Assembly (NCBI GenBank): GCA_038049695.1
Contig: CP142452.1
Span: forward strand, 36,072,501 to 36,136,500
Length of the DNA: 64,000 nucleotides
Direction: 5' to 3'
Source of the DNA: Cinnamomum chago
Taxonomy: Eukaryota; Streptophyta; Magnoliopsida; Laurales; Lauraceae
The notes beneath the pieces were generated by a model. That model made no database searches. It had not been told where the DNA came from and saw only the letters and a program-made list of their open reading frames with translations. Shown here in pieces: positions 28,024 to 58,234 of the stretch (positions are counted from its first letter, which is position 1; every line of letters starts with the position of its first letter). Position numbers and translations under genes: made by a program.

Positions 28024-28039
28024 AATTGACACCATATTT

Positions 28040-28224: not shown

Positions 28225-28240
28225 AATTGACACCATATTT

Positions 28241-30928: not shown

Positions 30929-30929
30929 A

Positions 30930-30970
<41 letters not shown>
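30929..30970 (-). repeat. (GA)n tract in the RING-H2 gene leader
   Basis: On the minus strand this is a run of about 20 GA units some 190-230 bp before the start codon. A TATATG stretch lies just upstream (about 30976-30984), so the run may fall at the transcription start or in the 5' untranslated region. Such runs are common in plant leaders and can bind BPC/GAGA proteins. Confidence 0.6.
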
Positions 30971-30971
<1 letters not shown>

Positions 30972-36689: not shown

Positions 36690-36883
36690 AGGACTGTTTA
36701 TCTTCCGTGATAAACGCAATAAATGCCTGACACCCACTCTGGACTAATCTGCTTGCCTTCAACACTGAATTAAATCCTGCCTGAGATTTCCTCTTGTTCT
36801 CCTGAAATACCAATTCTACCTGTGGTCCTTGGAATCTGAATGTTATGGTTTTACTAAAACAATCCATGGTGGCATGATATGCT
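36688..36883 (-). pseudogene. tail of the Gypsy gag-protease frame
   Basis: Continues in frame from 50631 across the Copia insertion. The first residues (YHATMDCFSK, TITFRF) are the usual stretch after the protease in plant Gypsy pol. The frame then closes at TAA beside the polypurine tract. The whole of reverse transcriptase, RNase H and integrase is absent, with about 50 codons between protease and tract. Confidence 0.85.
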
Positions 36884-37260
36884 TGTTAGGGATTTTGTGC
36901 ATTGCAATTTGATGGATGCATTATCATTTTAGCATCATTTGATTTACACACATATGCATTGATTTAGAAAAACTTGAAATCTTGTTTTATACATGCATTG
37001 TTTTTAAGATTTGTAGAAGTATTGATTTATGCATGTTTTTTTTTAAAACTTGGATGCATTTGTTTTAGAAAAGGAGGTTTTAGAAATCAAGCAAGCCTAT
37101 GTTTTAAACCCTTCAAATCTTTTTAGGCTTTTTATGTTTCATGTTTTAAAACCCTTAGAATGATTTAAAACATGTATTCAAGCTTGATTTAATGGCCCAA
37201 AAGTCCCCAAATAAAAACACTTTGAAAATATGCATTTTAGGGATTTTGGTCCCCAGGCCC

Positions 37261-37400
37261 AGGTCGACCCGCAGTGGGCTCGGTCGACCGGGTCCCCTGT
37301 CAAGCCGGTCGACCGAGCCCACTGCAGGTCGACCGGGATAGTGCCGTTGTGCCCTGTCAAACGGTCAGTTTTATGACCGTTGTGAAGGCCAGGTCGACCG
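37261..37400 (+). promoter_or_regulatory. GGTCGACC palindrome cluster upstream of LTR TATA box
   Basis: Five to six GGTCGACC/GGTCGACCG sites within 140 bp, ending about 30 bp before the TATA box at 37428. The same cluster is at 49124-49262 in the right LTR, and a related one lies upstream of the TATA box in the SIRE-like LTR. Placement suggests a promoter element. Function is inferred. Confidence 0.5.
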
Positions 37401-37427
37401 AGGAAGAGCCGTTGGGCACATTTTGGC

Positions 37428-37435
37428 TATAAATA
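37428..37435 (+). promoter_or_regulatory. TATA box of the LARD left LTR
   Basis: TATAAATA in a GGCTATAAATACT context, about 545 bp into the LTR. An identical box is at 49290-49297 in the right LTR. Confidence 0.7.
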
Positions 37436-38538
37436 CTAGTTCATTCCTTTGCCAAAAGTTGAGGATTTTTAGACCTTCCTTGAGAGGTTTTGAGGCAAAT
37501 AAAAGGGGAATGAACTAAGGGATGAAGGGGATCATTAGGAGAGCTAAAGCTTGGATTAATGAAGTTAAATTACAAATAAGCTTTACTTTTCTTAATCATA
37601 TATTTTCATGCTTTGCTCTAATTATTGGTAAATCTTTTCTAGCATGATAAACTATGATTTGTTGTGTCCTTAACATGTTTATGTTTTGAATTGATCTATT
37701 GTTTTGGATGCATCATCATTGATTCAATCCAAGTAGTACTTTAATTGGTAAATCTAAGTAGATCATGTTAATGAAAGAATCTTTGAAATTATATGTAACA
37801 TGATTCATATACTTGGTTGAATCTTTTTTTGTTGTTTTTCATCATAAGAAAATCACTTTCAAATCTATCTTATGTTTTGGATTCAACATCTTTACAAATC
37901 TATCTAATTTTGTTTTAAAGTTTCACAACTTGCTTTGCTTTGATAGGTATATCATTTTCAAGTTGTATTTATAATTACATATGATTTGTCCCCTAATTTC
38001 AATCAAATCTATTTTTATGTTTTATGAGCTACATTGTTGATTTGGTTGACATCCCTATGCATCACATGTTTTGTGCTTAGAATTTCACAACTTGTTTAGG
38101 ATACAAATGTATATCTTTTACAAGTTATTTTTAACATGTGATTTGCATTCTTTCCTCAATCATAAATGTTTTCATGTGCTAAAACTTTCAAAAGCCTTAG
38201 GCATACATTTATGAGCTTTCATTTTAAAAATGATTGAGGACATCATACATACACATTGAGCATTCATCTTTGCATTCATAGTGTGTGTGTGTATGAATTA
38301 ATTTTTCACTTCCATATCCGCCTAATAAAGAGGCATTGTAATGAGCTATAAATTGTATCTCCATCAAGTGTATTATAGACACTAATTAGAGAGATAACCA
38401 ACCATTGGTTGAAGAGATTATTGCTTAGCCTAGAAAAGCATCTTGTATAGGTTGATGTTGAGCCTTGAAAAACATCATTGTAAAGTTTATTGCTTAGCCT
38501 ATTGAAAAACATAAATAGTGGAAATCCGGTGGGGTGTT

Positions 38539-39180
38539 CACTACAACAAATGGGATTTTCAGCGACGAAAATATTTGCGTCGCAACCGAAAGTGTTGCAA
38601 AAAATAATTTTTTTGCAACATAAAATTAGACCCGTCGCAACAAGTTAAGTATTTGCGACACAAGACTCCATGCGTCGCAAATAGGTACTTTCAGCAATGA
38701 ATATAGTACGTCGCAAACAAATGCGTCAAAAAATCATTGGCGCCAAATGGCGGTAAAATTATTCGCGACGCCAGATAGTCATTTGCGACACAATCATCTG
38801 TCGTAAATAAGTGTCTCTATTTGCGACGCAATCCCCGTGTCGCAAATAATTTTTAGTCTGAGTTATGTCATAGAAAAGTTAAGGTTTTTTGCAATAGTTT
38901 CTTTTTTGCGTCACACATAATATCTTATTCGCGACGCTGATATATTTGCGTCGCAAATAATTAGTATTAGCGACCTCCATCATATGGTGTCATAAAAATT
39001 TTAAGCAAAAAAAATAACTATTTATTTGGGATGCAATTTTGACGTCCCAAAAAAATATTTAATTGCGACAGTATACATGCTGCGTCACAGATAATGTGTT
39101 TTTTTGCAACGTGCCTTTAAATGCGTCGTAGATAATAGTTTTATTAGCGACATTATTTTATAGCGTTACAAAAAAAAAAA
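38539..39180 (+). repeat. left subterminal repeats of the CACTA, GCGTCGCAAAT type
   Basis: More than ten copies of TTTGCGACGC or GCGTCGCAAA in both orientations within 640 bp. In CACTA elements such motifs are bound by the TNPA-like protein. Confidence 0.9.
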
Positions 39181-39230
39181 AGTCTCCCAATTATTTCCAT
39201 CTCCCGCCTTTTGTCTTCTTTTTTTTTTGT

Positions 39231-39920
39231 CACTACAACAATATGCACTTTTAGCGACGCTTTTCTAAATTCATCGGTAAAGATTACATTTTACCGACGT
39301 ATATCATTTCGTCGGTAAAGACAGACTTTTACCGACGTTTTATAAAAATGTCGGTAAAAAGTATCTTTATTAGCGACAATTTTTAGCGACGCTTTTCCAA
39401 ATTCGTCGGTAAAGATTACATTTTACTGACGTATATCATTTCGTCGGTAAAGACAGACTTTTACCGACGTTTTATAAAAAATGTCGGTAAAAAGTATCTT
39501 TACCGACGTTTTTAAAAGTTGAATTTTATCTTTAGCTTATTCTTCAGGGAAAATAAAATATATGCACTTTTACCGACGAAATATAAAATATCAAATTAAA
39601 TAAAAAATTATGGACTTTTACCGATGGAAAAAAACGTCGGTAAAAGTTTTTTGATAATTTTTTTATTTTTATTTATTATTAACGAGAATCTCTTTTACCG
39701 ACGAAAAAAACGTCGGCAAAAGTTTTAATAAATTTTTTTTTATTTATTATTAAGGTGAATGTCTTTTACTGACGAAAAACAACGTTGGTAAAAGTTTTTG
39801 ATAAATTTTTTAATTTTTATTTATCATTTTGCCAACGAAAAAAAATGTCGGTAAAAATATTTTTATATTATTTATTTTATTTCTTATTTTGCCGACGAAA
39901 AAAAAAAACGTCCGTAAAGT
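39231..39920 (+). repeat. second CACTA left end with ACCGACG subterminal repeats
   Basis: A new CACTACAACAA terminus starts at 39231. It is followed by about fifteen TTTACCGACG/CGTCGGTAAA motifs, a different family from the outer GCGTCGCAAAT repeats. No matching right end with this motif exists in the window. A 115-bp stretch is also duplicated (about 39246-39360 and 39382-39497). Confidence 0.85.
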
Positions 39921-40190
39921 TTTCACTTATTTTTTCCCACTCCCGCCTCCAAAACCCTATTTTCGCTCCCACTGACTTTCTCCCTCCAAAAGCCCTTTTC
40001 CTCGGTTCTCTTCTCTCATTCTCGCTCTCTCTGCTGTTATCTCACTCTAGCTCTCTGCTCTTCTCTCACTCCCGCTCTATCTTCCCTCGAAAGCCCTCTT
40101 TTGAGTCTTTTCTCTCTTTCATCTCTCTCTGTGTCTCTCGATCTCGATCTGCTCTTCTCTCTCTCTCGATTTGCTCTTCTCTCTCTCTCT

Positions 40191-40299
40191 CTCGCTCTTC
40201 TGATTTGGTTTGGGGTTTTTGGGGAATGCTCTCTCGATCTCGATCTGCTCTTCTCTCTCTCTCGCTCTTCTGATTTGGTTTGGGGTTTTTGGGGAATTT
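40191..40299 (+). repeat. 70-bp tandem repeat in a CT-rich leader-like stretch
   Basis: CTCGCTCTTCTGATTTGG recurs at 40191 and 40261, with the following TTTGGGGTTTTTGGGGAAT also repeated. The open frames here are caused by the CT repeats. Confidence 0.8.
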
Positions 40300-41045
40300 G
40301 GGTTTTTTGTTTTTAATAGTGTGGGAAGTAGAGATGACTTTTAAGTAGTGCCGTTTGGCACTGATTATCAGTATTATTTATTCTCAAGGGGGCTGTCACT
40401 GGGTGAGCAGTGGCGGAACCCTAAGCCTTCCTTATGGGAAAATTTTTGATTTCTGAGTTCACTACAACAACTTGCACTTTGATGGTAAGATTCTCCAAAT
40501 GGGGTTTTCTTTAGACCCTAACTGAAGTGGTTTGGTTTAAAAAATTATATATTTTTCTGTGGGGTGTTCAATAAAATGAAAGTGTTTGTTGCTTGCAATG
40601 TGTTTGATGAAATGCCTGAGACTGATTTGTTCTGTGGCAGTTGATGACTGGGTTCTTGGGTGGTGGTGGGGGTGGTGGGGCTTGTATTTGAACTGCAGAG
40701 TTGTTAGGAAAAAAAAAACACTTATATTTTAATGATAGAAATGGGATTTTAATTTAGTGATTTGGGGCTCTTGTGTCTGTTTCATTTCTTCCTGGAAACT
40801 TCAGTTGAATGTGCAGTGATTTGTGTTCCGGTTTTAGCATATCACTTTTGCTTATGCTAAGAATTCCATTTCAAGATGGTGGGTAGTTGGTTTGACAGAC
40901 GGCGGTCATTTTTCAACTTTAGTGAGGCTGGAGCCGATTTCTTGTGAACCCATTGAGCGCAGAAGGGGTGAAAAACCACTCACTTTAGTGCTATTACAAA
41001 TTCTTCTCCTTATTTTTTCTTCTTATCTTCCTCTAGCAATCAGCA

Positions 41046-41148
41046 ATGGCTATACTTGCTGAAACCAAATTCCATGTTCTAGTTGTTGATGACAGCCTTA
41101 TAGACAGGAAACTGATTGAAAGGCTTCTCAAAACCTCATCTTATCAAG
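41046..41148 (+). pseudogene. captured first exon of a type-A response regulator (ARR8/9-like)
   Basis: ATG at 41046 opens 34 codons containing [20 protein letters not shown], the start of the receiver domain with the acidic pair D15-D16. It then meets a donor-like CAAG/GTATAT. In type-A cytokinin response regulators exon 1 ends near this point. The phospho-acceptor aspartate lies in later exons, which are absent. A leader-like pyrimidine stretch precedes the ATG, so 5' untranslated sequence seems to have been captured too. Intron DNA was taken along, so capture was at DNA level. Confidence 0.85.
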
Positions 41149-42216
41149 GTATATTGTTATTCAAGGTATATTTCGTTTTCGTATGAAGTGAGAGTTTATG
41201 ATGATTCAGCTATTGCTATGCTATACTTTAGTTGTTCTTTCTTGTTTTGACTTTGCAATTATGGATGCAGGACCTGGAGCTCCATCAATATTCAATTGTG
41301 TAAGATACTAAACTCATTTTGTTCAAAATAACAGAAAGATACTTATAGTTAGACACTTTGATGGTAATTTGTTATGCCCAAGCTCCTGAATATTACCGTT
41401 GGAGTCTATTGGCTGGCTTCAAGCCATTGCATGCTGGCCATGCCATCCTTATCATATTTACTAAGAGTGAATTGAAAAAAAGAAAACTGGAAGAAGGGAA
41501 TGATGTCTTAAACATTTCAAATATTGGAGTCCCTAGAATTTATTAGTTAACGCATTATGCCTGTACTTGTTGATGACAGCCTCACAACTACGGTTTCATC
41601 CCTCAGACTCTTTGTGGGGATAATGGCCCAATGGATGTCTTGGTCCTCATGCAGGTATCCATTTCTCTTGCTACATGATTTCCATTTTGAAATTTATATT
41701 TGCAACATAGGTCTTCATGCAGTCACCAAGACACATAAGAGGTATTATTATAATGCCATCCTGAATTACAGTGTTTGCATATGGGCCTAGCATTCTGTAT
41801 GATTGGAAGCCCTTTTTCAGCAATATAAATCCTTCATTTTTGAGCTTCACCATAATCAGGAAATGGTGATTATTAATGCCATGCTATTTACATCAGATAT
41901 TTGAATTATGAATTTGTTCTTTTAAATCTGTGTAGCTTACATAAGCCTTACTGTAGCCAACGCCATACCTTACCTCTCTTATGCTCATAGGTCTGATAGC
42001 TTGTCAAACATACTTGGCCAAGCCTTTAGTTTACATAGAGTATCACATGAGATTTTATTCCACTTTCTATTTTCTGTTGGTTTCTAATCTCTATTTATTG
42101 TGCACCTTTAAGTTCTGCTAAGGAGGCCTGACCTTATCCATCAAGTTATTCCAACTTCCTATAATTATATGTTTTATTTATTTTCTTCTGCAATGCTTCT
42201 TCATATTTTCCATTAG

Positions 42217-42604
42217 GTATTCCCTGGAGCATGGACAGCAGTCTTAGTCTCACTTGACAATGTTGGAGTCTGGAATATTCGTGCAGAAAATCTCGATACT
42301 TGGTATCTTGGGCAGGAAGTGTATGTAAAGATAGTGAATCCAGAGAAAACTAACAAAACTGAATTGCCTATGCCAGATAATGCCCTCTTCTGTGGTGCCC
42401 TTGCACATTTGCAAAAGTATGTAGCCAGTATCTCAACTCTGTGCTTCTATCTATTCAATCATCTCCAATGAATGAACTCATTCTATATTTCAATTTTTCA
42501 GGCCACAGCATCACTCTACATCTTTTGCATCATCAATTGTGGCTGGAAGAGCCAAGTTATTCACACCTACGCTTCTCTTGGCCACAATTTCAATTCTATT
42601 TTGA
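42217..42604 (+). pseudogene. captured last two exons of an SKU5-similar (multicopper-oxidase-like) gene
   Basis: Exon A (42217-42416, after an AG acceptor) encodes the C-terminal cupredoxin part with FPGAWTAVLVSLDNVG and ENLDTWYLGQEVYVKIVNPE. Intron 42417-42501 has GT and AG ends. Exon B (42502-42604) ends with a hydrophobic tail and TGA, like the GPI-anchor signal of SKU5/SKS proteins. SKS proteins act at the cell wall in directional growth. Both exons are open and keep the splice phase. The first part of the gene is missing. Confidence 0.88.
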
Positions 42605-43396
42605 GCATCACTCAAACAGTACAGTCTGCTGAAAGGTTTTGGGTTAGAGGTGAATCAGTTGCTTGGGTTAGTTTCTGTTGTAATTGTTAGATGTGCGAAC
42701 CAGTCCTGTTTATATGAGTTTTTCAATTGTTTCTGTTGTAATACAGTTCTTGCAGATTTACCATTCTTTCTTGTTTCAGCTTTACAATTCTTTCTACAGA
42801 AAAAGTTTATGTATCAATGATTCACCGTTTTCAATCCTATTTACTTGCTTCTACCAGATTCATTTATCTATACTTCAGGTGCCCGCTATTCACACGTGTT
42901 AGCTAATTTACGTGCCGATATATTGTTTAATAAGTTTGGATTTGCTCTCTTGCAACTAATTCAGTTACCTATTTCTTGTTATAGAGTTTTCTTAAAGAGG
43001 TTAATAGGCAATTCCTTGGTAACTTCATTCATATATGGTGTCTATACTCTGCAATTCAGACTAATGTGTGCTCAGGTTTGTGTTTGGATTGAGTAATGTA
43101 GTGGAAAAAGTTTGAACCAGAACACAATTCTTGCAATCTAATTTCTCCTGTAAGGTATGGAACCCTAGTTGTGCAATGCTTCCATTTATATTTCTGTGCG
43201 AAGAACAAGACAACTGCAACGTGTGGCTGACTTACCTAAATGCACGAACCTTCATTTTTTTTTTCATTATTTGTATTCAGATACATCATGATGTGAATGT
43301 GATGTTGGTTTAATGATCCGGAGACAACGAGGAGGCTCACAATTTTAAGTTCTGTTTTTTTTTTAATCTAAATAATTATTGCTTGGGCAAATATAA

Positions 43397-43642
<246 letters not shown>

Positions 43643-43668
43643 TAATTACAGATATTTCTAAAAGTTTC

Positions 43669-43711
<43 letters not shown>

Positions 43712-44289
43712 TGGAAGTATCATCATATCATATTAAACTAACATATACCAGCAGTGCTTATACAAATGTACAGGTAAGAGCAGTTTGCTGTGCCCATAGG
43801 CCATGGGATGTTAAGAATTAAACGCAAGCTCTATGTGAAAATAACATCATGAAATCATACATTCAGATATTTGACCCACAAATATACCATGAATGTATCA
43901 TTGCCTGAATTCCGTCATGTACTTTTATTCATGTGTTTCTTGGGAGAAAAATGGAAAATAATTACCTCAGGTGGAGAGCGGTTTGCTCATGGTTGGAGTA
44001 ACCGTGATGGGGTTCCAAGAGGTTTACATGCAGGAAGTTCCGAGAATCGAATGCAAGCATTACTTCATATTCATGTGCTGGCAACACATTCATATTCTGT
44101 TGGGCTCTCTTATTTTCAGAAATCTGACATGCACGAAGTTACTAATGAGAGAGAGAGAGAGTGTCAGCTGTTTTATGTAAGGACACTTTTTTTAAAGTTT
44201 CATCTAATTAATTATTTCTTTTTTTCTTCAGTTTTTCTATACATTTCTAAATATTTATGTGAATTTTTTTCTTTTTTAGGATAAAATGA

Positions 44290-44480
44290 TTACACTCCAG
44301 TCGTAGCCCACAGAAGAAGATTCTCCCCATTGACAGATGATGAGATATGCAAATGAGTGTTGGGTACAAGGCCCGGATATGTCTGAGGTCTTGGGCATGG
44401 CGTCGTAGCCCCTCCATCCTCTTCAACAGGCCTTCACAATAATCAGCAGGTGGAAGAGCTTACTAAGAAGACAGCAGCAG
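44290..44480 (+). pseudogene. C-terminal stretch of plant CACTA (Ptta/En-Spm) transposase-associated protein
   Basis: One frame reads SPLTDDEICK, then VLGTRPGYV, a stop, and GLGHGVVAPPSS, followed by a short Gln/Glu-rich coiled-coil stretch (NNQQVEELTKKTAAAERQAQ). The EICxxVLGxRxGYVxGLGxG phrase is typical of the end of Ptta/En-Spm ORF proteins. Two stops interrupt it. It is the only transposase-related remnant inside this CACTA. Confidence 0.75.
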
Positions 44481-44919
44481 CTGAAAGACAAGCTCAAGAG
44501 TTGTCTCTTGGAAGAGCTTATTCGTTGTCTCTCCGTGATACATATCGAAGACCGCATTTCAGTTATTGTTTCTATGTTATATTGAGGCCAACTATTATAT
44601 AGTTTTATGTTTAACATAATTTTTTCAATATCTTCAGTAATAATTTGTGATGAGGACAACTGTTTTATTGCACTCAAATTCAATGAATTAATTTAGTTTA
44701 TGTTTTTACATCGATGGAGTGTTATTTTCGTACCTGAATTGCTACTTGGAGATATATATGATTGTGATGATCACCTGAGGATGACTTTGCAATGTAGATT
44801 TGTGAATGGATGTATTGTGAATGAATGATGAGATTATATTTGTATTGATTGGGTATCAAAAACAGGAATTTTTTTTCTTTATTTAAAAATATTAAAAAAT
44901 ATTTTTTTAGAAATTATTA

Positions 44920-45431
44920 TTTGCGGCGCTTTTATTGCATTGCAAATAATTAAATGTAACAAGATAAATATTATTTGCCACACCACATAAGCGTCGCAAA
45001 AAAAATAATATTTGCAACTTTATATGAGCGTCGCCTTTAATAATTTATTAACGACCTTTTAGAATCGTCGCAAATATAAATTATTGGTGACGCAATTTTA
45101 CCGTTACAAATAAATCATTATTTGCAACGTTTATAATACGTCGCAAATATAAATTAATTAGTGACGCAATTTTACCGTTGCAAATAAATCATTATTTGCG
45201 ACGTTTATAATACGTCGCAATTGATACGTAATTAGCAACGCTTTGAAACCGTTGCAAATACTCTCTTATTGCCACGCTGCAGTCTTTAGCGTAGCTAATC
45301 TTTTTGTGACCCCATTATTTGCGACCCCTCTGCGACGCCTAGTTTTTTGCGTCGCAATTACTTATTGCGACGTTTTTTATATTATTTGCGACGCTTTTTT
45401 GGCATCGCAAAAAGGCAAAATTGTTGTAGTG
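44920..45431 (-). repeat. right subterminal repeats of the CACTA
   Basis: TTTGCGACG/CGTCGCAAAT motifs recur about every 25-40 bp in both orientations up to the terminal TTGTTGTAGTG. The type matches the left end at 38539, proving that these two are partners. Confidence 0.9.
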
Positions 45432-45668
45432 GTTGGATCACAAGCCGGTAGTGGATGTAGGCATTGAGGCCGAACCACTATAAATCCTTGTGTGATGGTG
45501 CTTGCTTTGTGGTGATTGTTTTTATTAAGCTTCCGCATTTTGTTTGATAATCATCACTTGTGACTAGTTTAATTTAAAGAAGTTAAAATTGGTCTAAATT
45601 GATCATAATTGAAGCTCACCCTATTCACCCCCCCCCCCCTCTAGGGTTCGGATCTCCGGACTTTCAAT

Positions 45669-45680
45669 TGGTATCAGAGC
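45669..45680 (+). other. primer-binding site of the LARD
   Basis: TGGTATCAGAGC, complementary to the 3' end of initiator Met-tRNA, two bases after the LTR end at 45666. Confidence 0.9.
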
Positions 45681-45816
45681 AAGGTTACTCCATTTTAGGG
45701 CTTAACAACCCGGAGTTGATCCTTTCTAGATTAGAACCCTAGTGTTATGTTTTATTGCATATCTTTGTAGTGATTTCCACTATGATTGAAAATGAAATTT
45801 CCCTATAGTATCATTG

Positions 45817-48140
45817 CACCACTCTAAGACTTTTTTCTAGTTATATCTCCAAGAGTTGGTGAGTCCTCATGTGAACTCTCAAGGACATCCTTATCAAGAC
45901 CTTAGGTGAATCTTCATTGGTACACATTTAGACTAACCTTAAGGCCTTGATCCTCTCTAGACCAACCTATCCTTTTTAGTTAAATCTTTTTGTTGGTCAT
46001 GTTACATTTGCATTTTATTTCTTTATAGTCACATCTCTTAAAATGCAATGTTTCTTTGTGATCATTTGATTTTGTCTCCGTGAACTTTTAAGTTATATCT
46101 CATGGTTTTCAAAATACTTTTATTGCAATATTTTCATGATGGATTTGCATTTTGTTCATATAGTTATATCTCTTGTAGTGCATATCTATTCATGATCAAT
46201 TGATTGTGATTACAAAAGCTTTCATAGCTAGATTTTTCATGATCAATTGATGTTGGAAAATCATTTGATGAATGTCATAGTTAGATCTTTTTTGTAAATC
46301 AAATGATTTGAAGCAATTTAAGTTTTCCATTGATTTTTCAAGTTATATCTCTTGGTATGGAAAAATGTGTTCAATTTGTATGAGCGTCTATTGTCATTTT
46401 TAGAATACAAATTGAAAATTTATAATTGTACACTTCTTGTTTTTCAAAGTCGCTTGCTCATAATTTGAAATGGTTCTTTGTTGGGATTTTAAATATTGAA
46501 GTGATTTGAAAAACTTTGGAAAATGTTCTAAGCTTTATTGGTTGTATTTATAGAAGCAGTTTCCTTGAATTTATTTCCTTGTGCTTAATTATGATTATGT
46601 CATTTGGAAGGAAATAATTTTTACAAACAATTTGCATCTTTGCTCATTTAGTTACATTCTTTTTATGCAAATTGATTTTGATGTCTTACATTGAATGGTT
46701 GGATATGGTTTCATTGATTTGCATGTTTGTGCCTAACTTGGTATATATTTTCATTAATGCAAGTTGATGATTATGTATGTGCTAATTGGTATAATTATCA
46801 TATCTATTTTCCATTGCATTGTAAGCTTAGTACATTTGCTAAGAGTGGAGATATTGCATGATAGGTTAATGGATCATTTTAGATGAATTGGTATTAAACC
46901 ATTGTTCTTAATAGGTATATCCATTTATGTGATTCATCTTCATCTATATGTGATCCATGATGTCCCTCTAACTCCATAGTTTCTTGTGCTTGCATAGTTA
47001 TATTCTTTTTTGATGATATGGTATGAGTTAGATCTTGATTGTTGACTGATCCTCTCTATGCAAATGTCAAATCGTTCTATATATGGTTGTGATATTAGTT
47101 ATATTTGTAGAAACCATACTAGAACTCAAATCCATCCTCTATGCCTTCTAGTCATTTCTTTTTGGATGGTTATGATGTTGATTCATATATATTCTCTAAG
47201 TGATTTCATCCTTATACATGTTTCAACTTCATAGTAGTGATCTTGATCATATGAAACCCTTTGAAATCCATCCCTCGTATTTCTATATGTTTGATGGATA
47301 TCTTAGTTGTTGAATTCATATGATTTAGTCACTTTGAAAATTGCATGCATTACAAAGTTATATCCTTTTGCATTGCAATTTATCTTGTTCATCATTTTGC
47401 CCATTAGTTATATCTTTAAAAGTGATGAATATCCATTTATGATGCTTCATGGAATTTTGTGTTTGTCACATTCTTGCTCTTTATCATGTTGTCAAATTCA
47501 ATTGGTTTCAATTGGTATAATTTTTGATTGATTTGATTTCTTGTGAATGTGATAAACCTCGTGTATATTGGATTGAACTTAATAGTAATATATTTGTTCC
47601 ATGTCACACTCCATTAGCATCATAATTTTCATGTTTGCCACATCTCTTGCTCATATAGGTAAATCTCATGACCACCATGTTTATATATTCATAATCTTGG
47701 TTGGTTATTAGTTGAGGTTGGCTTCATGTTTGAATTTCATTTCACTCATCTTGCACTTTAATAGTCATATTTATTGATTGAATGAGATGATTTCAAAACT
47801 TTCATAGCATATGTTTTTCAAAGTTAAATTGATTAATGCTATGATTAATAAACCCCATTTCATCATAGATAGCTCTATTTTGGATTTATCTTAATCGTCA
47901 TATTCTTTATAACTCCAGTTTAGAGTGATTGTTTTAATAGACTTATCCTTGAATCTCAATTGGTATTCTTTGTTTTTCCAATTGGTATCCATGATCGCTT
48001 TTCTCCTTGACCTTGCTTTCTTTTGGTAATTTGATCATATTGAGCTCTATAGTTAAACATGTCTAATCCTTTCCTTGAAGTTTTTCCTCAATTGGTAAAA
48101 CCATCTTCTTCTTGAACCAAATAGTTATATCTTTGTCAAA
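45817..48140 (+). repeat. dispersed motif WAGTTATATCTYTT, often in loops of unrelated inverted repeats
   Basis: About twenty copies of the motif or close variants occur in 2.3 kb (for example 45840, 46090, 46161, 46280, 46340, 46650, 47096, 47357, 47406, 48122). Many are bracketed by inverted arms with a different sequence at each site. Examples: 46008-46017/46039-46048 (10 of 10), 46258-46269/46298-46309 (12 of 12), 46323-46330/46357-46364 (8 of 8), 46628-46637/46665-46674 (10 of 10), 47082-47088/47112-47118 (7 of 7), 47803-47810/47836-47843 (8 of 8). The pair 46370-46381/46405-46416 is 12 of 12 with a weaker loop motif. There is no open frame. A folded RNA role is inferred. Confidence 0.75.
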
Positions 48141-48339
48141 AGTTTGACAAAAGGAGAGAATGGATTGAGGGGGAGTGTAAACCTTCATAGGAAGTATTAG
48201 TTTTGATCAAATTCACCCTTGGATTGACTTTGAACCCTTAGAGACTGCTACCATACATGATAACCTGTTATGTATTTCATTTTCGATTTCTTTTGTTAAC
48301 AGGTGCTACTAAAAGGTATTTTCCTTGTTTCATGTGTGT

Positions 48340-48745
48340 AGGTACCTTTGCAATTTAATGTCAAAGGGGGAGAGAGCATTCAAGTTCTCTAAAGGGGAAG
48401 AGAATGTCCAAGCTTCCTAAGGGGAGATATTGTATGATCTTCTACAGGGGAGAGAATGCATATCTTGCCAAAGGGAGAGAGATGCATGGTCAAAGGGGGA
48501 GAGGCAGAAGAAAGAAAGCTTGGGAGCTAAAGAAGATGCTTGACTATAGAGAGAAATATGAAAAGAAAGCTTGAAGAATGATCAAGCTCCAAGCATCAAG
48601 AAGAATGAAGAAAAGGACCAAGAGCCCAAGCTAAGAGAAGAAGCATCCAAGAGATTTCAAGAATTGTCCAGCTTAGGGGGGGCTGAAGACTTAGTGTGTA
48701 AATTCAGTGGTGAGTGAGTTGCCATCAAATTGCAAAGGGGGAGAT
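48340..48745 (+). repeat. series of polypurine-tract-like runs ending in the true tract
   Basis: Runs such as AAAGGGGGAGAGAG, TAAAGGGGAAGAGA, TAAGGGGAGATA, AGGGGAGAGAA, AAAGGGAGAGAGATG and AAAGGGGGAGAGG recur before the final AAAGGGGGAGAT that abuts the right LTR at 48746. The last is the functional tract by position. Confidence 0.8.
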
Positions 48746-50630
48746 TGTTAGGGATTTTGTGTATTGCAATTTGGTGGATGCATTATCATTCTAGCATCAT
48801 TTGATTTACACACATATGCGTTGATTTAGAAAAACTTGAAATCTTGTTTTCTACATGCATTGTTTTTAAGATTTGTAAAAGTATTGATTTATGCATGTTT
48901 TGTTTTTAAACTTGGATGCATTTGTTTTAGAAAAGGAGTTTTTAGAAATCAAGCAAGCCTATGTTTTAAACCCTTCAAATCTTTTTAGGCTTTTTATGTT
49001 TCATGTTTTAAAACCCTTAAAATGATTTAAAACATGTATTCAAGCTTGATTTAATGGCCCAAAAGTCCCCATATGAAAACACTTTGAAAATATGCATTTT
49101 AGGGATTTTGGTCCCCAGGCCCAGGTCGACTTGCAGTGGGCTCGGTCGACCGGCCCAACAGGGGACCCGGTCGACCGAGCCCACTACGGGTCGACCGGGA
49201 TAGTGCCGTTGTGCCCTGTCAAACGGTCAGTTTTATGACCGTTGTGAAGGCCAGGTCGACCGAGGAAGAGCCGTTGGGCACATTTTGGCTATAAATACTA
49301 GTTCATTCCTTTGCCAAAAGTTGAGGATTTTTAGACCTTCCTTGAGAGGTTTTGAGGCAAATAAAAGGGGAATGAACTAAGGGATGAAGGGGATCATTAG
49401 GAGAGCTAAAGCTTGGATTAATGAAGTTAAATTACAAATAAGCTTTACTTTTCTTAATCATATATTTTCATGCTTTGCTCTAATTATTGGTAAATCTTTT
49501 CTAGCATGATAAACTATGATTTGTTGTGTCCTTAACATGTTTATGTTTTGAATTGATCTATTGTTTTGGATGCATCATCATTGATTCAATCCAAGTAGTA
49601 CTTTAATTGGTAAATCTAAGTAGATCATGTTAATGAAAGAATCTTTGAAATTATATGTAACATGATTCCTATACTTGGTTGAATCTTTTTTTGTTGTTTT
49701 TCATCATAAGAAAATCACTTTCAAATCTATCTTATGTTTTGGATTCAACATCTTTACAAATCTATCTAATTTTGTTTTAAAGTTTCACAACTTGCTTTGC
49801 TTTGATAGGTATATCATTTTCAAGTTGTATTTATAATTACATATGATTTGTCCCCTAATTTCAATCAAATCTATTTTTATGTTTTATGAGCTACATTGTT
49901 GATTTGGTTGACATCCCTATGCATCACATGTTTTGTGCTTAGAATTTCACAACTTGTTTATGATACAAATGTATATCTTTTACAAGTTATTTTTAACATG
50001 TGATTTGCATTCTTTCCTCAATCATAAATGTTTTCATGTGCTAAAACTTTCAAAAGCCTTAGGCATACATTTATGAGCTTTCATTTTAAAAATGATTGAG
50101 GACATCATACATACACATTGAGCATTCATCTTTGCATTCATAGTGTGTGTGTGTATGAATTAATTTTTCACTTCCGTATCCGCCTAATAAAGAGGCATTG
50201 TAATGAGCTATAAATTGTATCTCCATCAAGTGTATTATAGACACTAATTAGAGAGATAACCAACCATTGGTTGAAGAGGTTATTGCTTAGCCTAGAAAAG
50301 CATCTTGTATAGGTTGATGTTGAGCCTTGAAAAACATCATTGTAAAGTTTATTGCTTAGCCTATTGAAAAGCATAAATAGTGGAAATCCGGTGGAGTGTT
50401 GGATCACAAGCCGGTAGTGGATGTAGGCATTGAGGCCGAACCACTATAAATCCTTGTGTGATGGTGCTTGCTTTGTGGTGATTGTTTTTATTAAGCTTCC
50501 ACATTTTTTTTTATAATCATCACTTGTAACTAGTTTAATTTAAAGAAGTTAAAATTGGTCTAAATTGATCATAATTGAAGCTCACCCTATTCACCCCCCC
50601 CCCTCTAGGGTTCGGATCCTCGGACTTTCA
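48746..50630 (+). repeat. right LTR of the LARD
   Basis: 1885 bp, matching the left LTR (36884-38538 plus 45432-45666) with few differences. It carries the TATA box at 49290-49297 and the GGTCGACC cluster. Leader hairpins lie at 50280-50370. A C run precedes CTCTAGGG near the end. It is followed by the duplication ATGCT and the interrupted protease frame. Confidence 0.95.
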
Positions 50631-52172
50631 ATGCTTCTAACCAATCCATGCCTAAAATGACATCAAAATCATGCATGTCCAAAACAATGAGGTTCGCCGG
50701 TAAATTAACATCTCCTAACAAAACCGTACAGCTAGGGTAATAGGTTCTACACACAACTTGTTTCCTTACTGGTGTGGTTACTATCAGAATATAATCCAAT
50801 TTACTATGTGGTGCATCAATCATCTTAGCAAAACTAAGTGATGAAAACGAATGTGTGGATCCAGGATCAAATAAAATTTGAGCTTCTACCCCACAAACAT
50901 GAAGTTTACCATCCACCACGTCTCCTGCAGCTTCAGCATCCATACGGTTGAGATAATATAAATGTCCATGCATCTGTAGTCTATTCGGTGCTTGATTTTG
51001 CCTTCCTTGGCCATGTCTGTTCTGTTGTGGAGAACGAGCATTCTGATTCTGTGCTGATGGCCTAGCCTGCTGCTGCTGCTGAGGTAGTCTAACCTGATTA
51101 TGAACTGGTGCTTGATTCTGAGGAGCTACTTGTCTCTGCTGTTGGTTTCTGTTCCCTTGATTCGGAAGTTGTGGGCAATCCTTGATTGCATGGTTCATAG
51201 CCTCACATTTGAAACAGGCACCTGTGGCCTTACGACATTCATAAGTTTCGTGGTTCTTGCCACAATGGCCATAACCCTGTCTCACTTGACTTTGTTCTTG
51301 CCTTGGTTTCTTGTTGTGCTGCTGCTTCTGATTCTGCTGCTTCCTGTCTTGAACGATCAGGTTGTTAATATCTTCAAACTTATATGCCCGTTTGACCGCC
51401 TCATCATATGTAGCTGGTGGAACTACTCCTATAACACCTCTCATGATAATCGGATTCAATCCTTCCAAAAACTTCGTTATCTTCTTCTGCTCAGTGTCAA
51501 TCAACTCGGTAGCATATCGAGTCAAACTCTCAAACTTGGTGACATAGTCTAGCACAGTCATGCTGCCATGCTTGAGCTGCTGGGATTCAATAGCCTTCTG
51601 TCTCTTAACATGGGAGGGAATGTACTTATCCTAAAACTGTGTCTTGAACGCTGCCCACGCATCTTCGTTAGCCATTATCGTGTATGGGTCCTTAACTGTT
51701 TGCCACCACCGATCAGCAAGCCCATAGAATAGTGAAGTTGTGAGGTTGACCTACTGTCTCCCTGTGCACGTAAAGACATCAAAGATTTTCACGGTATTAG
51801 CTAGCCAGTCATCAGCAAATAACAGGTCCTCATTGCCCGAAAATTCCTTCGGTGCTCTCTTCCTGAGCTTCTCAAATAACGTGTTAGGGTCATGATCCCT
51901 ATTATGGATAACAATCTGTTGACCCAAAGGCTATGGAGCTAAGTTCCTGTTCTGAAGAACTTCCAAGAGTTGTCTTTGGACTTGAGCCATTTCTTCATCC
52001 TTCCTTGCTAGCTGTTCTTGAAATTTGGCTTGAGTCTCATTTGTCTGTGTTTGTTGTTCTATCATAGTTTGCATGAGTTCTTGGAACTGTGTACTGTTGG
52101 CGTATTAGTTGTGTTTGACTCATTCTGATTACTGCCTGAATCATTATTGTTTGGAAATTTCCTTGGAGGCAT
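50631..52172 (-). pseudogene. Gypsy gag and protease, broken
   Basis: The start ATG is at 52172 (MPPRKFPNN). Gag has a Gln-rich coiled stretch, then the retrotransposon gag domain (DDWLANTVKIFDVF, ADRWWQTVKD, LDYVTKFESLTRYA). A Q/N-rich linker and the CCHC knuckle CFKCEAMNHAIKDCP precede the protease, with the active site FDPGSTHSF and the later FDVILGMDWLEA. The CYS/HIS stretch YGHCGKNHETYEC just before may be a second knuckle. The stretch from 51561 down is open; upstream there is one frameshift and about three stops. The frame passes over the LARD insertion to 36883. Gag forms the particle and protease matures it. Confidence 0.9.
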
Positions 52173-52333: not shown

Positions 52334-55186
52334 TGTCGCGACCCCAGAACGAACCCCGGGCCCGCGACGGTTGATTATGTTTGTTTTCCCACAGGTTCCC
52401 GCGGTGAGGATTCCCGAGACACGCGGAATCTATATCACATGATCAAGTTTGCGGAAGCGTGCAGCAAATCAAATCAAGATTAGTACCAATAAATTTTTAA
52501 GTGCTATGACAATTAATAATGAGACATAGTATCAAAAGAGAGGAGTTAACATGGCATTCCCATCATGACTCAAGTTATGAGACTAACACAAAAGTAAATT
52601 AAGTTTAGTTACATCCCATAAGAGGCCAACAAAGGCCAATACAACTCTCAAAGTAATAAAAGAACCCAATGACAAAATGTAGCAAAACTCAAGAACCCGC
52701 CCGACGTCTAGTTGACATCGTCGGGTTGCCACTCTCTGACTGGGGGTGGCTCAAGAGCCTTCTCCGAACGCTCCTCCTCAAAGGCAACGTCACCTGCACC
52801 TAGGCACCAACATACAAGGGTCAAACACAAGAGTTTGGCAGGTAATCAATTTAGGCATGAGCATATAAGTAGTAAACGTTAAAGGAAGCATTTAAAGCCA
52901 TTTTGCTGAATTGTAAACAGTTACATGACTAAGGTACATTTCAAAATACGAGCAAAACTGACATGAATACTTATAATATCATGAATAGTTACATTCCACA
53001 AGAGCCCATCCTTTCTCTATCATTTATAATGAAAAGAGCAAGCACGACGACAAGCACGATATACATAATATAATCACGACACGATTCCCATATATACGGG
53101 GATTCCGGCCGCGGAACCGGACACGAAAGATGTGTAATAAAATACACGACCAGTCTGCAGACAGTCCACATGTTTAAGGACCCCAGACAGTGGATCAAAC
53201 TAAAAGGGCAGTCCAAGCTCAATGGTGTTCACTTAAATTCATGAATGCACAAAACACGCGAAACACTGTCTAAACATGTCGAGATAAAAGGGGAGAATCA
53301 CTTATCAAAACACGACAAGCACGACTAGCAAAAGGCATAATTAATATGCATAACAGCTTAGGAAGTGACCCCTTTTTCTTGAAACAAATCTTCAAAATGA
53401 GCTTGTATTTAAACTTCAAAACGAGTACACAATGATATTCATTGTATCAAAACCAAAGCACGAACACAAAGCCTATCAAGCACATGTAAGGACCTTTGGT
53501 TGATCTTTGTGTAAACGAAGCCCAAATGTTGGAATTTAAAAGAGAATCGGTGCCCCGGAAGGTCAAAGACATCTCAGGTTTCGAGTGCACAATATCGGGC
53601 TAAAGGTCACTTAACCTGTTCTAGTCTTCATTCTTACAAATATTCTTCAAAATGGGCAATGGTGTCAAATTCGGTTAGCTCGCGGTCAGATGTCGGCTAG
53701 ATCTGGCGGCTAGCCGCTAGCTGACCGACAGGCTGACCGCTGGAAATCCAGGTCCAAACGCAGCTCCTTGGAAAAGGAACCGAACTGACTTCGGTTGGCT
53801 TACGGTTAGCCGGAATGGGACCTGGCGGCTAGCCGTAAGCTGACCGTTGAACCTTGATGCACATGCCAGCTTCTGGGAAAGGAACCGCCGAGCTCAGTCA
53901 GCTCACGGTTAGCCGAAATGGGGATTTCGGCTAGCCGCCAGCTGACCAGCGGCTGACTGAAACTGCATGGGAAGTGCAGTTCAATTCAGATTTTCACATT
54001 TCTTTTTCCCTTCTTCTTGTTTCTCATTCAACCTACAACTCCCTGAGCCCACATGCTCTCCAAGGGGTAAAACACACATTCATAGCACAAATGGAGACAT
54101 TACATTCCCATTCTCCAAGCTAAAACAAAATCCCCAAATTTTCCATTCAAGACATAAATTTTAATGAAATAAGAGGAATGAAAAGAAAACAAATCAAATG
54201 CACACATGCTATCATCCATCCTAGATTGGTTACTTGCCTTAGTCAAAGATGTCACAACTTCTCCAAGCACTTCCACTCAAGCTAATCCAAAGACTACAAA
54301 ACCCATGAAAACCAAACAACTCACTCAATCTTGAAAACAAGGAACTCATTTTCACAAAAGGGTTTGCAATATGAAAAACAAGATCTTTAGGAACCAAAAA
54401 GGCTTCATTAAGGAGATGGGTTGGAGCTCTTACCTAGAAAAGGACAAACAAGAGAGAAGGAATAAAATGGAGCTCTTGCCCAACTAGAAACTTCAAGAAA
54501 TTTGCATCAATGGAAAGCTTAGGATGAGAGGAAGAAGATGATGGTCTTGGAATTCCATTTGGAGTCTTCTAACTTGATCATTCAAGAGAAATGAAGTGAA
54601 GAGAAAAGGTCTCTCCTCTTGGCTGCTCTAGGGTAAGGGTTTGAGAGTGAAAGAGGGAAAGAAGGAAAGAGTTGACTTAAAACCTTAGCAAATGGGGCCT
54701 AATGGCCAAATCTTGCATCAATGAAAACATGATCTTGCGGGCCTCGAATGAACTCGACGAAGAAGGATAAAATGATCCTCGAAATATCTAGTTTCCAAAA
54801 AGTATATTTTTGACATGGTTTTGAGATCTCGAAAATTGTGTCCAGATTTGTGTATAAAAGACAACTTTACCCTTTTTGGGCCAGAACTTGGGTTTTTGGG
54901 CTTCAAACATGAATGGGCTGAAAACGAAAGTTGTAACACATAGTAAAATCATTCAAATCAAATCAAAATCACAATTAAAAACAAAAACCATTACGATCCT
55001 CCCAAGCTTACACGTGCACTCAGGCCTCCCTGAGTGTGTCTGACTAACACTAAACGTCCTTAAAATTCCCAAAGCTATATCGAGGACTAAACTAATTATT
55101 TCTAGCCCAACGACAACTAAACCCACTTAAGACTAAACACACACTAATTACACACTAATTGAATTAGTCTAGGTCGAGGTCTAACA
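52334..55186 (-). repeat. 5' LTR of the Gypsy element
   Basis: 2853 bp. On the minus strand it has a pyrimidine-rich leader with CAAACCCTTACCCTAGAG (about 54630). The donor-like CTAG/GTAAGAG follows at 54434/54433. A GGCTAGCC/GCTGACCG cluster lies at 53680-53960, and the acceptor-like TTGGTGCCTAG at 52800-52810. Confidence 0.95.
52800..54433 (-). other. putative intron inside the Gypsy LTR
   Basis: Donor TTCTAG/GTAAGAG and acceptor TTGGTGCCTAG/GTGCAG. A branch-like TTGAC lies upstream of the acceptor. The 466 bp from acceptor to LTR end contain a short acidic frame (GDVAFEEERSEKALEPPP). Both LTRs keep these sites (34329-35953 in the other copy). Layout and distance match LTR A and LTR B. Splicing is inferred. 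Confidence 0.45.
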
Positions 55187-55328: not shown

Positions 55329-57840
55329 TGTAAGTTCATGGGGATCCGAACCCTAGAGGGGGGGTGAATAGGGTGAGCTTCAATTATGACCAATTAAGAC
55401 AAATTTTAATATCTTAACATAAACTAGTCACATGTGATGATTTATCATACAAGATGCGGAAGCTAATAAAAAAATCACCACAAAGCAATCACCATCACAC
55501 AAGGATTTATAGTGGTTCGGCCTCAATGCCTACATCCACTACCGGCTTGTGATCCAACACCCCACCGGATTTCCACTATTTATGCTTTTTACTAGGCTAA
55601 GCAATAACCTTTACAATATGCTTTCCAAGGCTAAGCAATAACCTTTACATTGATGTTTTTCAAGGCTTAACATCAACCTATACATTATGCTTTTATAGGC
55701 TAAGCAATAACCTCTTCAACCACAAGGTTGGTTATCTCTCTAATTTAGTATCTATAATACACTTGATGGAGATTCAATTTAGCTCATTACAATGCCTCTT
55801 AATTAGGCGGATATGGAAGTGAAAATCTAATACACACACACACTATGAATGCAAAGATGAAAGTACATGAGGTGTGTGTGTGATGTCCTCAATCATTTTG
55901 AAAATGAAAGCTCATAAATGTATGCCTAAGGCTTTTGAAAGTTTTAGCTCATAAAAACATTTATGATTGAGGAAGGAATGCAAGTCACATGTTAAAAGTA
56001 ACAACTTGTTAATGATGTCAAAGATACACAAGTTGTATGAAATGAATTAGCTCTAAACATGTGATGCATAGGGATGTCAATCAAATCAACAATGTAGCTC
56101 ATAAATCATAAATATAGATTTGATTGAAATATGGGGACAAATCATATGAACTTATAAAATCAACTTGAATATGATATACCAATCAATGCAAGGCAAGTTG
56201 TGAAACTTTAAAACAAAGTTACATATGATTTGTAAACATGTTGAATCCAAAACATAAGATATATTTGAAAAAGATTTTCTTATGATGGAAAACAACAACC
56301 AAAGATTCAACCAAGTATATGAATCATGTTACATCTAATTTCAAAGATGTTTCCATTAACATGATCTACTTAGATTTACCAAGGATAAAGTACTACTTGG
56401 GTTGAATCAATGGTGATGCATCCAAAACAATAGATCAATTCAAAATATAAAACATGCTAAGGATACAACACATCATAGGTTAACATGCTACTAAAGATTT
56501 ATCAAAGATAAAACAAAAACATGAAAACATATGATATGAAAAGATGTTGAATCCAAAACATAAGATACATTTGAAAGAGATTTTCTTATAATGGAAAAAC
56601 AACAACCAAAGATTCAACCAAGTATATGAATCATGTTATATATTTCATTAACATGATCTACTTAGATTTACCAAAGATAAAGTACTACTTGGATTGAATC
56701 AAATGGTGATGTATCCAAAACAATAGATCTATTCAAAATATAAGACATGCTAAGGATACAACACATCATAGGTTAACATGTTACTAAAGATTTACCAATG
56801 ATAAAACAAAACATGAAAACATATGATTTGTAAAGAAGTTGAGTCCAAAACATAAGATAGTTTTGAAAGTGATTTTCTTATGATGGAAAACAACAACCAA
56901 AGATTCAACCAAGTATAGGAATCATGTTACATATAATTTCAAAGGTTCTTTCATTAACATGATCTACTTAGATTTACCAATTCAAGTACTACTTGGATTG
57001 AATCATATGGTGTTGTATCCAAAATAATAAATCAACTCAAAACATAAAACATGTTAAGGACACAACACAAACATAGTTTAACATGCTAGAAATGATTTAC
57101 CAAAAATAAAACAAAGCATGAAAACATATGCTTAAGGAAAGTAGAGCCTACTTGGAGATTTAACTTCATTAATCCAAGCTTTAGCTTTCCTAATGCTCCC
57201 CTTCATCCCTTGGTTCTTTTCCCTTGTATATGCCTCAAAACCTCTCAAGGAGGGGCTTAAAATTCCCAACTTTTGGCGAAGGAAAGAACTCATATTTATA
57301 GCAAAAAGTGCCCAACGGCTAGTCCTCGGTCGACCGGCAAACAGGTCTCGGTCGACCGAGATCACACAACGGTCAAATTTCTGTCCGTTGGAGTACTTTG
57401 GCCCTGACGGCCTGCAGTGTTCTCGATCGACCGGGACCTCTGCGCCGGTCGACCGGCGACACTGCCGGGCCACCCCCCTTTTGACAAAAATTCTAATTTT
57501 TGCACATTTGAAGGTATTTCTTTGGGAGGATTTTTGGGCCACTAAACCAAGCTTGAATACATGTTTTAAATCATTCGAAGAGGTTTTAAAACATGAAACA
57601 TAAAAAGCCTAAAATGATTCAAAACTTTAAAACCAAAGGCTAGCTTGATTTGATAAAACTCTTTTCTAAAACAAATGCATCCAAGATTTAAAAACAAATC
57701 ATGCATGAATCAATACTTTAAAAACAATGCATGAATAAAACAAGATTTCAAGTTTATTTAAAACAATGCAAGTGTGTAAACTCAAATGATGCTTGAATGA
57801 TAATGCATCCATCAAATTGCAATCTACAAAATTCCTAACA
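55329..57840 (-). mobile_element. solo LTR of the LARD-related Copia group
   Basis: Minus-strand ends TGTTAGGA and CATGAACTTACA, with the 5-bp duplication TAACT at 55324-55328 and 57841-57845. It is related to the LARD LTRs along most of its length (leader, CCTAGAGG end, GGTCGACC cluster at 57325-57470). It carries four leader hairpins (55583-55706) and three tandem units of about 300 bp (from 56240). There is no internal region. Confidence 0.92.
56240..57130 (-). repeat. three tandem units of about 300 bp in the solo LTR
   Basis: The phrase GTTGARTCCAAAACATAAGA starts units at 56240, 56546 and 56838 (spacing 306 and 292). The LARD LTRs have one such unit. Confidence 0.85.
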
Positions 57841-58234
57841 TAACTCCTCTTCTTCTGGAGGATCTTACAAACTTAATGAATTAACAATGTACCTGGGGAG
57901 TGATCCTATTGCAATCTCAGATGATGAAGAAGATGATTTTGATATCTTGGCATGGTGGAAATCATTCGAAACTAAGTCTCTCGTGCTTTCCACCATAGCC
58001 CGTGATATACTAACAATACCAGCGTCTACAGTTGCATCAGAGCAGGCATTTAGTGCAAGTGAGCGCCTTATTGACCCCAGAAGGACTATGCTTACAGAAG
58101 AAACCGTTGAGGCCTGCATGTGCTTACGGGATTGGTATCAAGCACATGATAGGGAACAACACCTCGATTATGTTGAAATCGAGATAGAAGAAGAGCTAGC
58201 GGGGTTACATATATCACAGTATAATTTTTTTTAG
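57841..58234 (+). pseudogene. hAT 2 transposase, C-terminal dimerisation domain
   Basis: An open frame of about 115 codons. It shows ISDDEEDDFDILAWW, then IARDILTIPASTVASEQAFS, LIDPRRTMLTEETVEACMCL and RDWYQAH, the hAT C-terminal dimerisation region, ending at TAG near 58234. The frame joins the middle piece across the solo LTR. Only this last part is free of stops. Confidence 0.92.

Follow-up and report, generated by a model that had tools for sequence, protein, structure and literature searches.

How the RNA of gene-less LTR elements, LARDs for example, enters the particles of a helper is, to our knowledge, an open question. It is raised by a 64,000-nucleotide stretch of Cinnamomum chago DNA (contig CP142452.1, positions 36,072,501 to 36,136,500; hereafter the window), in which the non-coding interior of one LTR element holds an array of inverted repeats around a recurrent motif. 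Is this array a set of selected hairpins, and if so, what would recognize it? An initial annotation, made from the window alone, read the loops as possible binding sites for Gag or another protein, acting in packaging or nuclear export.

The element that carries the array

The array lies in a complete non-autonomous LTR element (36884-50630, plus strand; family A), bounded by the 5-bp target site duplication (TSD) ATGCT at 36879-36883 and 50631-50635. The two LTRs are 98.1% identical over 1656 aligned bases. The 5' LTR is split into a first part (36884-38538, found by self-BLAST against 48745-50400) and a second part ending in ...CTTTCA (45432-45666). The DNA transposon between them (38539-45431; CACTACAAC...GTTGTAGTG, TSD GTT) lies outside the array; we take it to be of the CACTA type from its terminal sequence, and at its right end are 37/74-bp repeats that fold strongly (z about -5 on either strand). 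The primer binding site zone ATTGGTATCAGAGC (45667-45680) is presumably of the initiator-tRNA type. The 3' LTR occupies 48746-50630, and the interior (45667-48745), 68% A+T, contains no frame of at least 150 aa. The name LARD, which the locus had been given at the outset, is correct for this copy: it has paired LTRs, a TSD, a primer binding site, a polypurine tract, and a long interior in which gag, pol, and env are all missing.

Four Sirevirus polypurine octamers AGGGGGAG start at 48168, 48365, 48494, and 48736 (48168-48743, plus strand). The last one (48736-48743) begins exactly 10 bases before the 3' LTR and is followed by AT and then by the TG at 48746; it is bordered by an inverted repeat with the perfect core CAAATTGCA/TGCAATTTG (48726-48734/48765-48773). 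The LTR contains three CGG..CCG palindromes, all within 49143-49198. The accessible text of PMC2829016 gives Sireviruses four AGGGGGAG octamers per element on average, and names as hallmarks the AT/TG after the last octamer, an inverted repeat that surrounds this octamer, and palindromic CGG-CCG boxes in the LTR, 8 to 18 of them in the few members given. Judged from the AGGGGGAG tracts, the AT/TG junction, and the inverted repeat at the last tract, the element is a gene-less Sirevirus derivative. Its relatives have gag and pol, as Sireviruses do; family A differs from Sireviruses in lacking both.

The family A element appears to be nested in another LTR element, given the flanking copies at 33864-36649 and 52334-55148, which are 95.5% identical. 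The surroundings also include a Ty3-type gag-protease frame (50605-51630, minus strand) and a further related LTR (55340-57850, minus strand), which is about 85-91% like parts of the family A LTR and contains internal duplications and a hairpin of the type found at 49624.

Motif copies and inverted repeats compared with controls

We counted the motif WAGTTATATCTYTT on the plus strand of 45669-48180, with dinucleotide shuffles as controls. Allowing at most three mismatches there are 20 copies (shuffle mean 3.4, maximum 11, 100 shuffles), which bears out the initial count of about twenty; 19 of them fall within 45838-48135, many in hairpin loops. At most two mismatches are found in 12 copies (shuffle mean 0.43, maximum 3). 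The motif has one orientation: 20 of 21 copies are in sense, and the lone minus-strand copy overlaps a forward one. AATTGGTAW words also recur in the array (46787-48095); by eye, they resemble the LTR/PBS junction CAATTGGTATC.

The same region contains 20 perfect inverted repeats with arms of at least 7 and loops of 14-35 (shuffle mean 6.0, maximum 13, 100 shuffles). Nine of these hold a motif copy with at most three mismatches in the loop (shuffle mean 0.15, maximum 1, 100 shuffles); the corresponding number of motif copies is eight of the 20, because repeats 46323 and 46333 enclose the same one. That the motif lies between inverted arms, as first proposed, is true of these nine repeats; the other 11 hold no motif at this threshold. 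In a sliding test over 45840-48150, in which motif and repeat positions were kept and only their mutual offset was changed, 6 of 2258 shifts reached nine motif-holding repeats (mean 2.5, maximum 10). Non-overlapping stems with a net score of at least 8 number 15 (shuffle mean 5.2, maximum 10, 40 shuffles), and 12 of them hold the motif at no more than four mismatches (shuffle mean 0.60, maximum 2).

Motif stems were absent from the pol coding part of the window (6 stems, versus 8.1 in 15 shuffles), from the gene-rich region 28000-31000 (4 versus 4.4 shuffled), and from the outer element's LTR at 33864-36649 (6 versus 2.5, maximum 6). The 3' LTR of family A has stems in excess (11 versus 3.9, maximum 9, 40 shuffles), a feature new beyond the initial annotation; among them are those at 49624-49666, 49787-49828, 49951-49988, and 50022-50076. 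Only two of the LTR stems hold the motif (shuffle mean 0.28, maximum 2).

The repeats could be chance products of AT-rich non-coding DNA, the interior being 68% A+T. However, motif-centred repeats are far commoner here than in the dinucleotide shuffles, the position shifts, and the control regions. These comparisons refute chance for the array as a whole, though not for each stem, and we consider this explanation extremely improbable.

Individual hairpins

We listed 18 hairpins of 34-60 nt each, all on the plus strand, and nine of the 17 gaps between them measure 4-13 nt. No listed hairpin falls in 46771-47081, 47432-47736, or 47845-48262 (about 300-420 nt each), though motif copies are present there. 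The four perfect pairs singled out initially (at 46008, 46258, 46370, and 46628) were recovered exactly, base for base.

At 45960-45998, GACCAAC/GTTGGTC closes a loop of 25 with AGTTAAATC; all 7 pairs persist in 20 of the 21 copies, with a G-U in one of them. The perfect 10/10 pair TTGCATTTTA/TAAAATGCAA follows at 46008-46048 (loop 21 with AGTCACATC). An imperfect stem, GATTTGCA/TGCATATC, surrounds the perfect motif copy at 46161 (46142-46186); it has one mismatch in the window and loses pairs in the sister family B described below, where there are two more. ATCAATTGATTGTGA/TCATGATCAATTGAT (46195-46251) has a loop of 27, and AAATCATTTGAT/ATCAAATGATTT (46258-46309) a loop of 28 with AGTTAGATC. 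The pairing probability in context is low, 0.35, for TTTTCCAT/ATGGAAAA (46323-46364, loop 26 with AGTTATATC). In TTCAATTTGTAT/ATACAAATTGAA (46370-46416) the loop motif is degenerate; it is intact in family B. TTATTTCCTT/AAGGAAATAA occupies 46571-46617, and CAATTTGCAT/ATGCAAATTG (46628-46674, loop 27 with AGTTACATT) is outcompeted locally, with a pairing probability of 0.00.

Further downstream, TATGGTT/AACCATA (47082-47118) has a loop of 23 with AGTTATATT. The loops of two neighbouring hairpins, AAATTGCA/TGCAATTT (47338-47381, loop 28) and TGTTCATCATTTT/AAAGTGATGAATA (47386-47431), both contain AGTTATATC, and that of TCATAGCAT/ATGCTATGA (47802-47844, loop 25) contains AGTTAAATT, which differs from the full motif at four positions. 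The last hairpin of the array is ACCTGTTA/TAACAGGT (48263-48304), with a degenerate loop core. The stems had been described as unrelated to one another, and this is so in part; several arms share ATTTGC or TTGCAT (46008, 46142, 46628, and 46711).

Related families in the genome

All copies compared come from this one genome (1.06 Gb, 14 contigs), which contains many of them; of 7623 first-look candidates for the whole-interior query, 40 were scored. Two families share the array, which the initial annotation had seen in one copy. In some copies the 5' array is 68-82% like family A (73-82% on realignment) and the 3' half 90-94%. Longer stretches show that these copies belong to a second family, B, whose LTRs are 74-78% like those of family A in L060, L061, and L062, and patchier in L059 (71-88%). 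LTR elements are known to switch templates between RNAs that share a particle. The two families are mosaics (3' half 90-94%, array 73-82%, LTR mostly 74-78%), a make-up that fits template switching between co-packaged RNAs and says nothing on what brought the RNAs together.

Family B lacks the capsid part of Gag and lacks pol; what it does have is a frame (L060 4034-5515), upstream of the same array, that resembles the C-terminal part of the Sirevirus-type Gag found in the window. The array of these sister elements begins where the frame ends, another feature new to this analysis; in L060, the frame terminates within the loop of the first hairpin. A CCHC knuckle, CIYCGIEGHFRFEC, was recognized by eye, and a Pfam search with the frame returned no match. 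Among the places listed for family B, 31 of 142 have uninterrupted frames of 479-491 aa. The frame is under purifying selection, because dN/dS is 0.25-0.44 among five distinct copies (L059, L060, L061, L040, and L043), three further rows of the dN/dS table being parts of these same five. Family B is therefore not a pure LARD, since it has kept the Gag C-terminal frame. Within that frame, hairpins show no clear excess (8 versus 4.0 shuffled, maximum 10, 60 shuffles).

The window also contains a pol-bearing relative (family C; 6016-14046, minus strand) with gag and pol fragments; its Pfam matches are to integrase and related domains only. Stop-free open frames of at least 1608 aa are present in 64 of the 150 listed relatives of this pol-bearing copy, and possible helpers therefore exist. 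The family C LTR likewise shows an excess of stems (8 versus 3.4, maximum 7, 40 shuffles), of which two hold the motif (0.30 in shuffles, maximum 2) and one lies at the position of the 49624 hairpin.

In L051, L053-L055, and the B1 copies (L039-L043, L066-L068), whole hairpins were lost repeatedly, each time between arms with ATTTG(CAT) in common; after such a loss, the new junction in several copies again forms a stem that encloses a motif loop, CATTTGCAT/ATGCAAATG being one example. Runs with a constant step of about 5.7 kb were found for family B and of about 6.9 kb for the pol-bearing family (C1:86188534-86206394, C5:35829834-35847844, and C1:39979809-40008010 are among them), as would be expected of head-to-tail LTR-interior arrays of the type reported for Cassandra. 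The linker signature of the clade also recurs at 3.4-kb steps (C1:39943570, 39946970, 39950370, and 39953770), which hints at tandem copies of an even shorter non-autonomous derivative.

Constraint on stems and loop core

Divergence between families A and B was determined with copies other than the window's own. Between L056 (family A) and L044 (family B), 21 of 158 stem sites in eight hairpins differ (13%), as do 9 of 68 sites in the nine-base core of eight motif copies; the corresponding numbers are 53 of 164 for other loop sites and 94 of 330 for spacers. Gaps in this comparison affect no stem site, 4 core sites, 5 sites of the loop flanks, and 40 spacer sites. Two other A/B copy pairs again gave 21 of 158 for the stems, and 11 of 70 and 13 of 70 for the core. 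Overall, the families differ by 13% in stems, 13-19% in the core, and 25-33% in loop flanks and spacers. For L056 and L044, Fisher p is 2.5e-5 for stems versus flanks plus spacers, and p is 0.003 for core versus flanks. The stems were picked as paired in the window, which creates no bias towards likeness with family B unless chance stems were picked.

These values bear on an origin without selected function, in which a tandem duplication of one hairpin decayed and the arms were matched by quasi-palindrome correction, the copying of one arm onto the other through strand switching in imperfect palindromes. Such a process would be in keeping with the ATTTGC/TTGCAT words shared by some stems and with the loss of hairpins between word-sharing arms in L051, L053-L055, and B1. 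However, quasi-palindrome correction predicts more change in the arms, and the arms differ by 13% compared with 25-33% elsewhere; it also leaves unexplained why the core is conserved while the flanks drift (9 of 68 versus 53 of 164). We regard this origin as unlikely.

Changes in pairing were tabulated for ten hairpins, eight from the interior and two from the LTR, in an alignment made by hand with the structure in view, which leans towards structure. Among 95 pairs, 82 are unchanged, four are changed on both sides, and nine on one side (three of these still pair). All four double changes are complementary: A-T to T-A at 46258, and T-A to C-G at 46370 (beside a required one-base bulge), 46571, and 49624. 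When the changes were dealt at random, 0.33 complementary doubles were expected, and four or more occurred in 4 of 20000 deals. Six pairs break and 89 of 95 are kept in family B, against a null mean of 83.0; this value was reached in 73 of 20000 deals. The table is conservative in that doubtful states were dropped or counted as broken. A first version had six doubles among 94 pairs, two of them resting on the states of some copies only; the outer pair of 45960 (state in 4 of 8 A copies) was dropped, and that of 49624 (the third inner one, with its state in 1 of 3 B copies) was counted as broken.

In a sequence-only alignment of the stems (five B rows and eleven stems, two with wrong coordinates, the arms being off by one base at gaps), 112 of 471 cells are broken at zero offset, 42 are one-sided, and none is double-changed; when slid, it gives 259-283 broken cells and 2-13 chance doubles. 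Double changes are absent here, and the covariation result therefore depends on the hand alignment. Misplaced rows (B1, shortened A copies, and some B2 at 46571) were left out of the stem-by-copy comparison. Across copies, six G-U versus three A-C pairs were seen in three or more copies (117 versus 40 cells). We gave no weight to this count or to stem conservation among copies, because the use of window-perfect stems introduces a bias and the G-U excess comes mainly from two hairpins. By eye, L063 has a further outer-pair change at 46571, from T-A to A-T, and in L059 the 49951 stem is retained around a loop that is much shorter.

Two outcomes had been named at the outset as speaking against selected structure: as many motif-centred repeats in shuffles, and related copies whose arms change while their pairing is lost. 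Neither came about. Copies with changed arm bases for the most part still pair: the stems differ half as much as the spacers, and the doubles in the hand alignment are complementary, though the sequence-only alignment shows none. Taken together, the structure of the array and its selection are well supported, and the hairpin structure is very probably under selection.

Folding and the level at which the array acts

Folding energies in 200-nt windows of the interior (17 per strand) give a mean z of -1.13 on the plus strand and -1.24 on the minus strand; the values for the LTR are -2.32 and -2.64. The interior values are modest, as AU-rich stems under large loops would lead one to expect, and bulk folding energy is weak evidence here. 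In local context with 60-nt flanks, 15 of 20 selected stems have a pairing probability above 0.8; it is near 0 for stems 46628 and 47118, and below 0.8 for 46323, 50022, and 50105. Since the fold energies are modestly below those of shuffles and equal on both strands, it is only by inference that we place the array at the RNA level.

An element acting as DNA, be it a cruciform, a hairpin in single-stranded cDNA used in integration or recombination, or a set of transcription-factor sites, would share several of these properties, as perfect Watson-Crick arms fold on both strands and the strand z-scores are equal. Its difficulties are the motif orientation of 20 to 1, the distance of the array from the LTR ends, and the variety of arms among the hairpins, which a single double-strand-binding protein could hardly recognize in every case. 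We judge action as DNA to be highly unlikely, and treat the hairpins below as candidate RNA structures.

An Rfam search of 45400-50700 gave seven matches with E values up to 1, all under the gathering scores, and no known RNA family was assigned; the three best matches fall on the LTR palindrome near 49117-49204. A kissing-loop or dimer site was rejected: the motif is nearly absent from the reverse strand (1 hit), and by eye the core contains no long self-complementary stretch.

A single hairpin after pol

In L069, a pol-bearing relative with a long open frame, the hairpin CACCTGTTTCTAA [tcttatatttatatctc] TTATAAGCAGGTG stands right after pol and contains the motif with one mismatch. When the 700 bases in question were shuffled 300 times, no like hairpin arose. 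It aligns with the last hairpin of the array (48263-48304) in families A and B, the one with the degenerate core. At the same place, the family C copy in the window has a differently stemmed hairpin, CATATTTTAT [ttttatatctctt] ATAAACATATG, with ten pairs, one bulge, and the motif at two mismatches; it was missed by the bulge-free scan and matched in 0 of 300 shuffles. The linkers of these two pol-bearing relatives contain no hairpin array, only one motif hairpin each.

The simplest history would be that one linker hairpin multiplied as pol was lost, a direction we infer because the two pol-bearing copies carry a single hairpin. The initial reading of the loops as binding sites, for Gag in packaging or for export, is plausible, and it gains from the presence of one such hairpin after pol in two pol-bearing relatives.

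Proposed function

We propose that the interior RNA folds as a series of hairpins, many of which would combine a stem of 7-12 bp with a loop of 21-30 nt that exposes a nine-base core close to AGTTAYATC. The pairing and the core would be preserved by selection, and the stem sequences would drift through paired changes. The ancestor may have been a single cis-acting hairpin, of the kind that still directly follows pol in relatives bearing this gene; the non-autonomous lineage would have lost pol and filled the space with many such hairpins. Their likeliest job would be recognition of the element's RNA by the Gag of a helper or by the Gag C-terminal protein that the sister family encodes, with many weak sites adding up to strong packaging in competition with the helper. 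For this reading as a whole, a selected array derived from one cis-acting hairpin and likeliest recognized by helper Gag or the Gag C-terminal protein, we see the chances as evenly balanced; Gag-mediated packaging, taken on its own, falls slightly short of that.

The same selected hairpins could have a different partner, namely a host RNA-binding protein, or could serve export, stability, a block to translation, or escape from silencing. The structural evidence applies equally to these roles. Many single-strand-binding proteins use U-rich sites in large loops; the motif is U-rich and lies in a large loop, and the single hairpin after pol sits in a 3' untranslated position. The Gag C-terminal frame that adjoins the array in the sister family points, though not conclusively, to a partner encoded by the element instead, and we find a host role rather doubtful.

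The element may be a parasite of a parasite: having lost pol, it would have multiplied the packaging hairpin of its helper (up to about 20 copies) so that its RNA is packaged preferentially, the sister family supplying its own Gag C-terminal RNA-binding protein. We offer this fuller scenario tentatively, as one that could well prove wrong.

Comparison with known systems

We searched the literature on LARDs, Sireviruses, retrotransposon packaging, and hairpin arrays, with most subscription papers outside the search, and did not find this layout described. The accessible descriptions of LARDs agree with family A in the LTRs, the primer binding site, the polypurine tract, the long non-coding interior, the lack of proteins, and the assumed mobilization in trans; those descriptions mention no array of hairpins with a common core on differing stems, such as family A has. 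According to the accessible part of PMC7215508, RNA secondary structure is conserved in LARDs. The linker motifs of Sireviruses described in the available text of PMC2829016 are polypurine tracts and the inverted repeat, not hairpins with a loop core. Cassandra TRIM elements resemble the present case, as far as the accessible part of PMC7215508 describes them, in that they are non-autonomous LTR elements, have RNA structure, and form tandem arrays of LTR and interior; however, what folds there is a super-hairpin made from the two LTRs together with 5S parts, rather than many small hairpins in a row.

The dispersed packaging sites known so far lie for the most part in genomes that code for proteins, and their loops are smaller. 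Those of ssRNA viruses and hepatitis B virus are, in the accessible parts of PMC3662417, PMC7612645, and PMC6281560, stem-loops with a short shared loop motif that serve as capsid sites, and the array is like them in its multiple stem-loops, common loop motif, and differing stems. Capsid binding has been measured in those systems according to the same texts, whereas the array belongs to a non-coding LTR retrotransposon and is a predicted binding site. By analogy, the array may work as such dispersed signals do in RNA viruses (PMC3662417, PMC7612645, in the parts accessible); the likeness rests on the one core, the differing stems, the nearly constant sense orientation, the borrowed particle, and the Gag C-terminal frame adjoining the array in the sister family.

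Implications

The clade is large, its linker signature occurring at 14,165 sites in the genome with at most two mismatches, compared with 32 sites when the reversed signature served as control. Should the array prove to be a multivalent recognition site, it would be a natural, countable, and testable packaging element for plant Copia elements, and it would exemplify cheating through the multiplication of a cis-signal.
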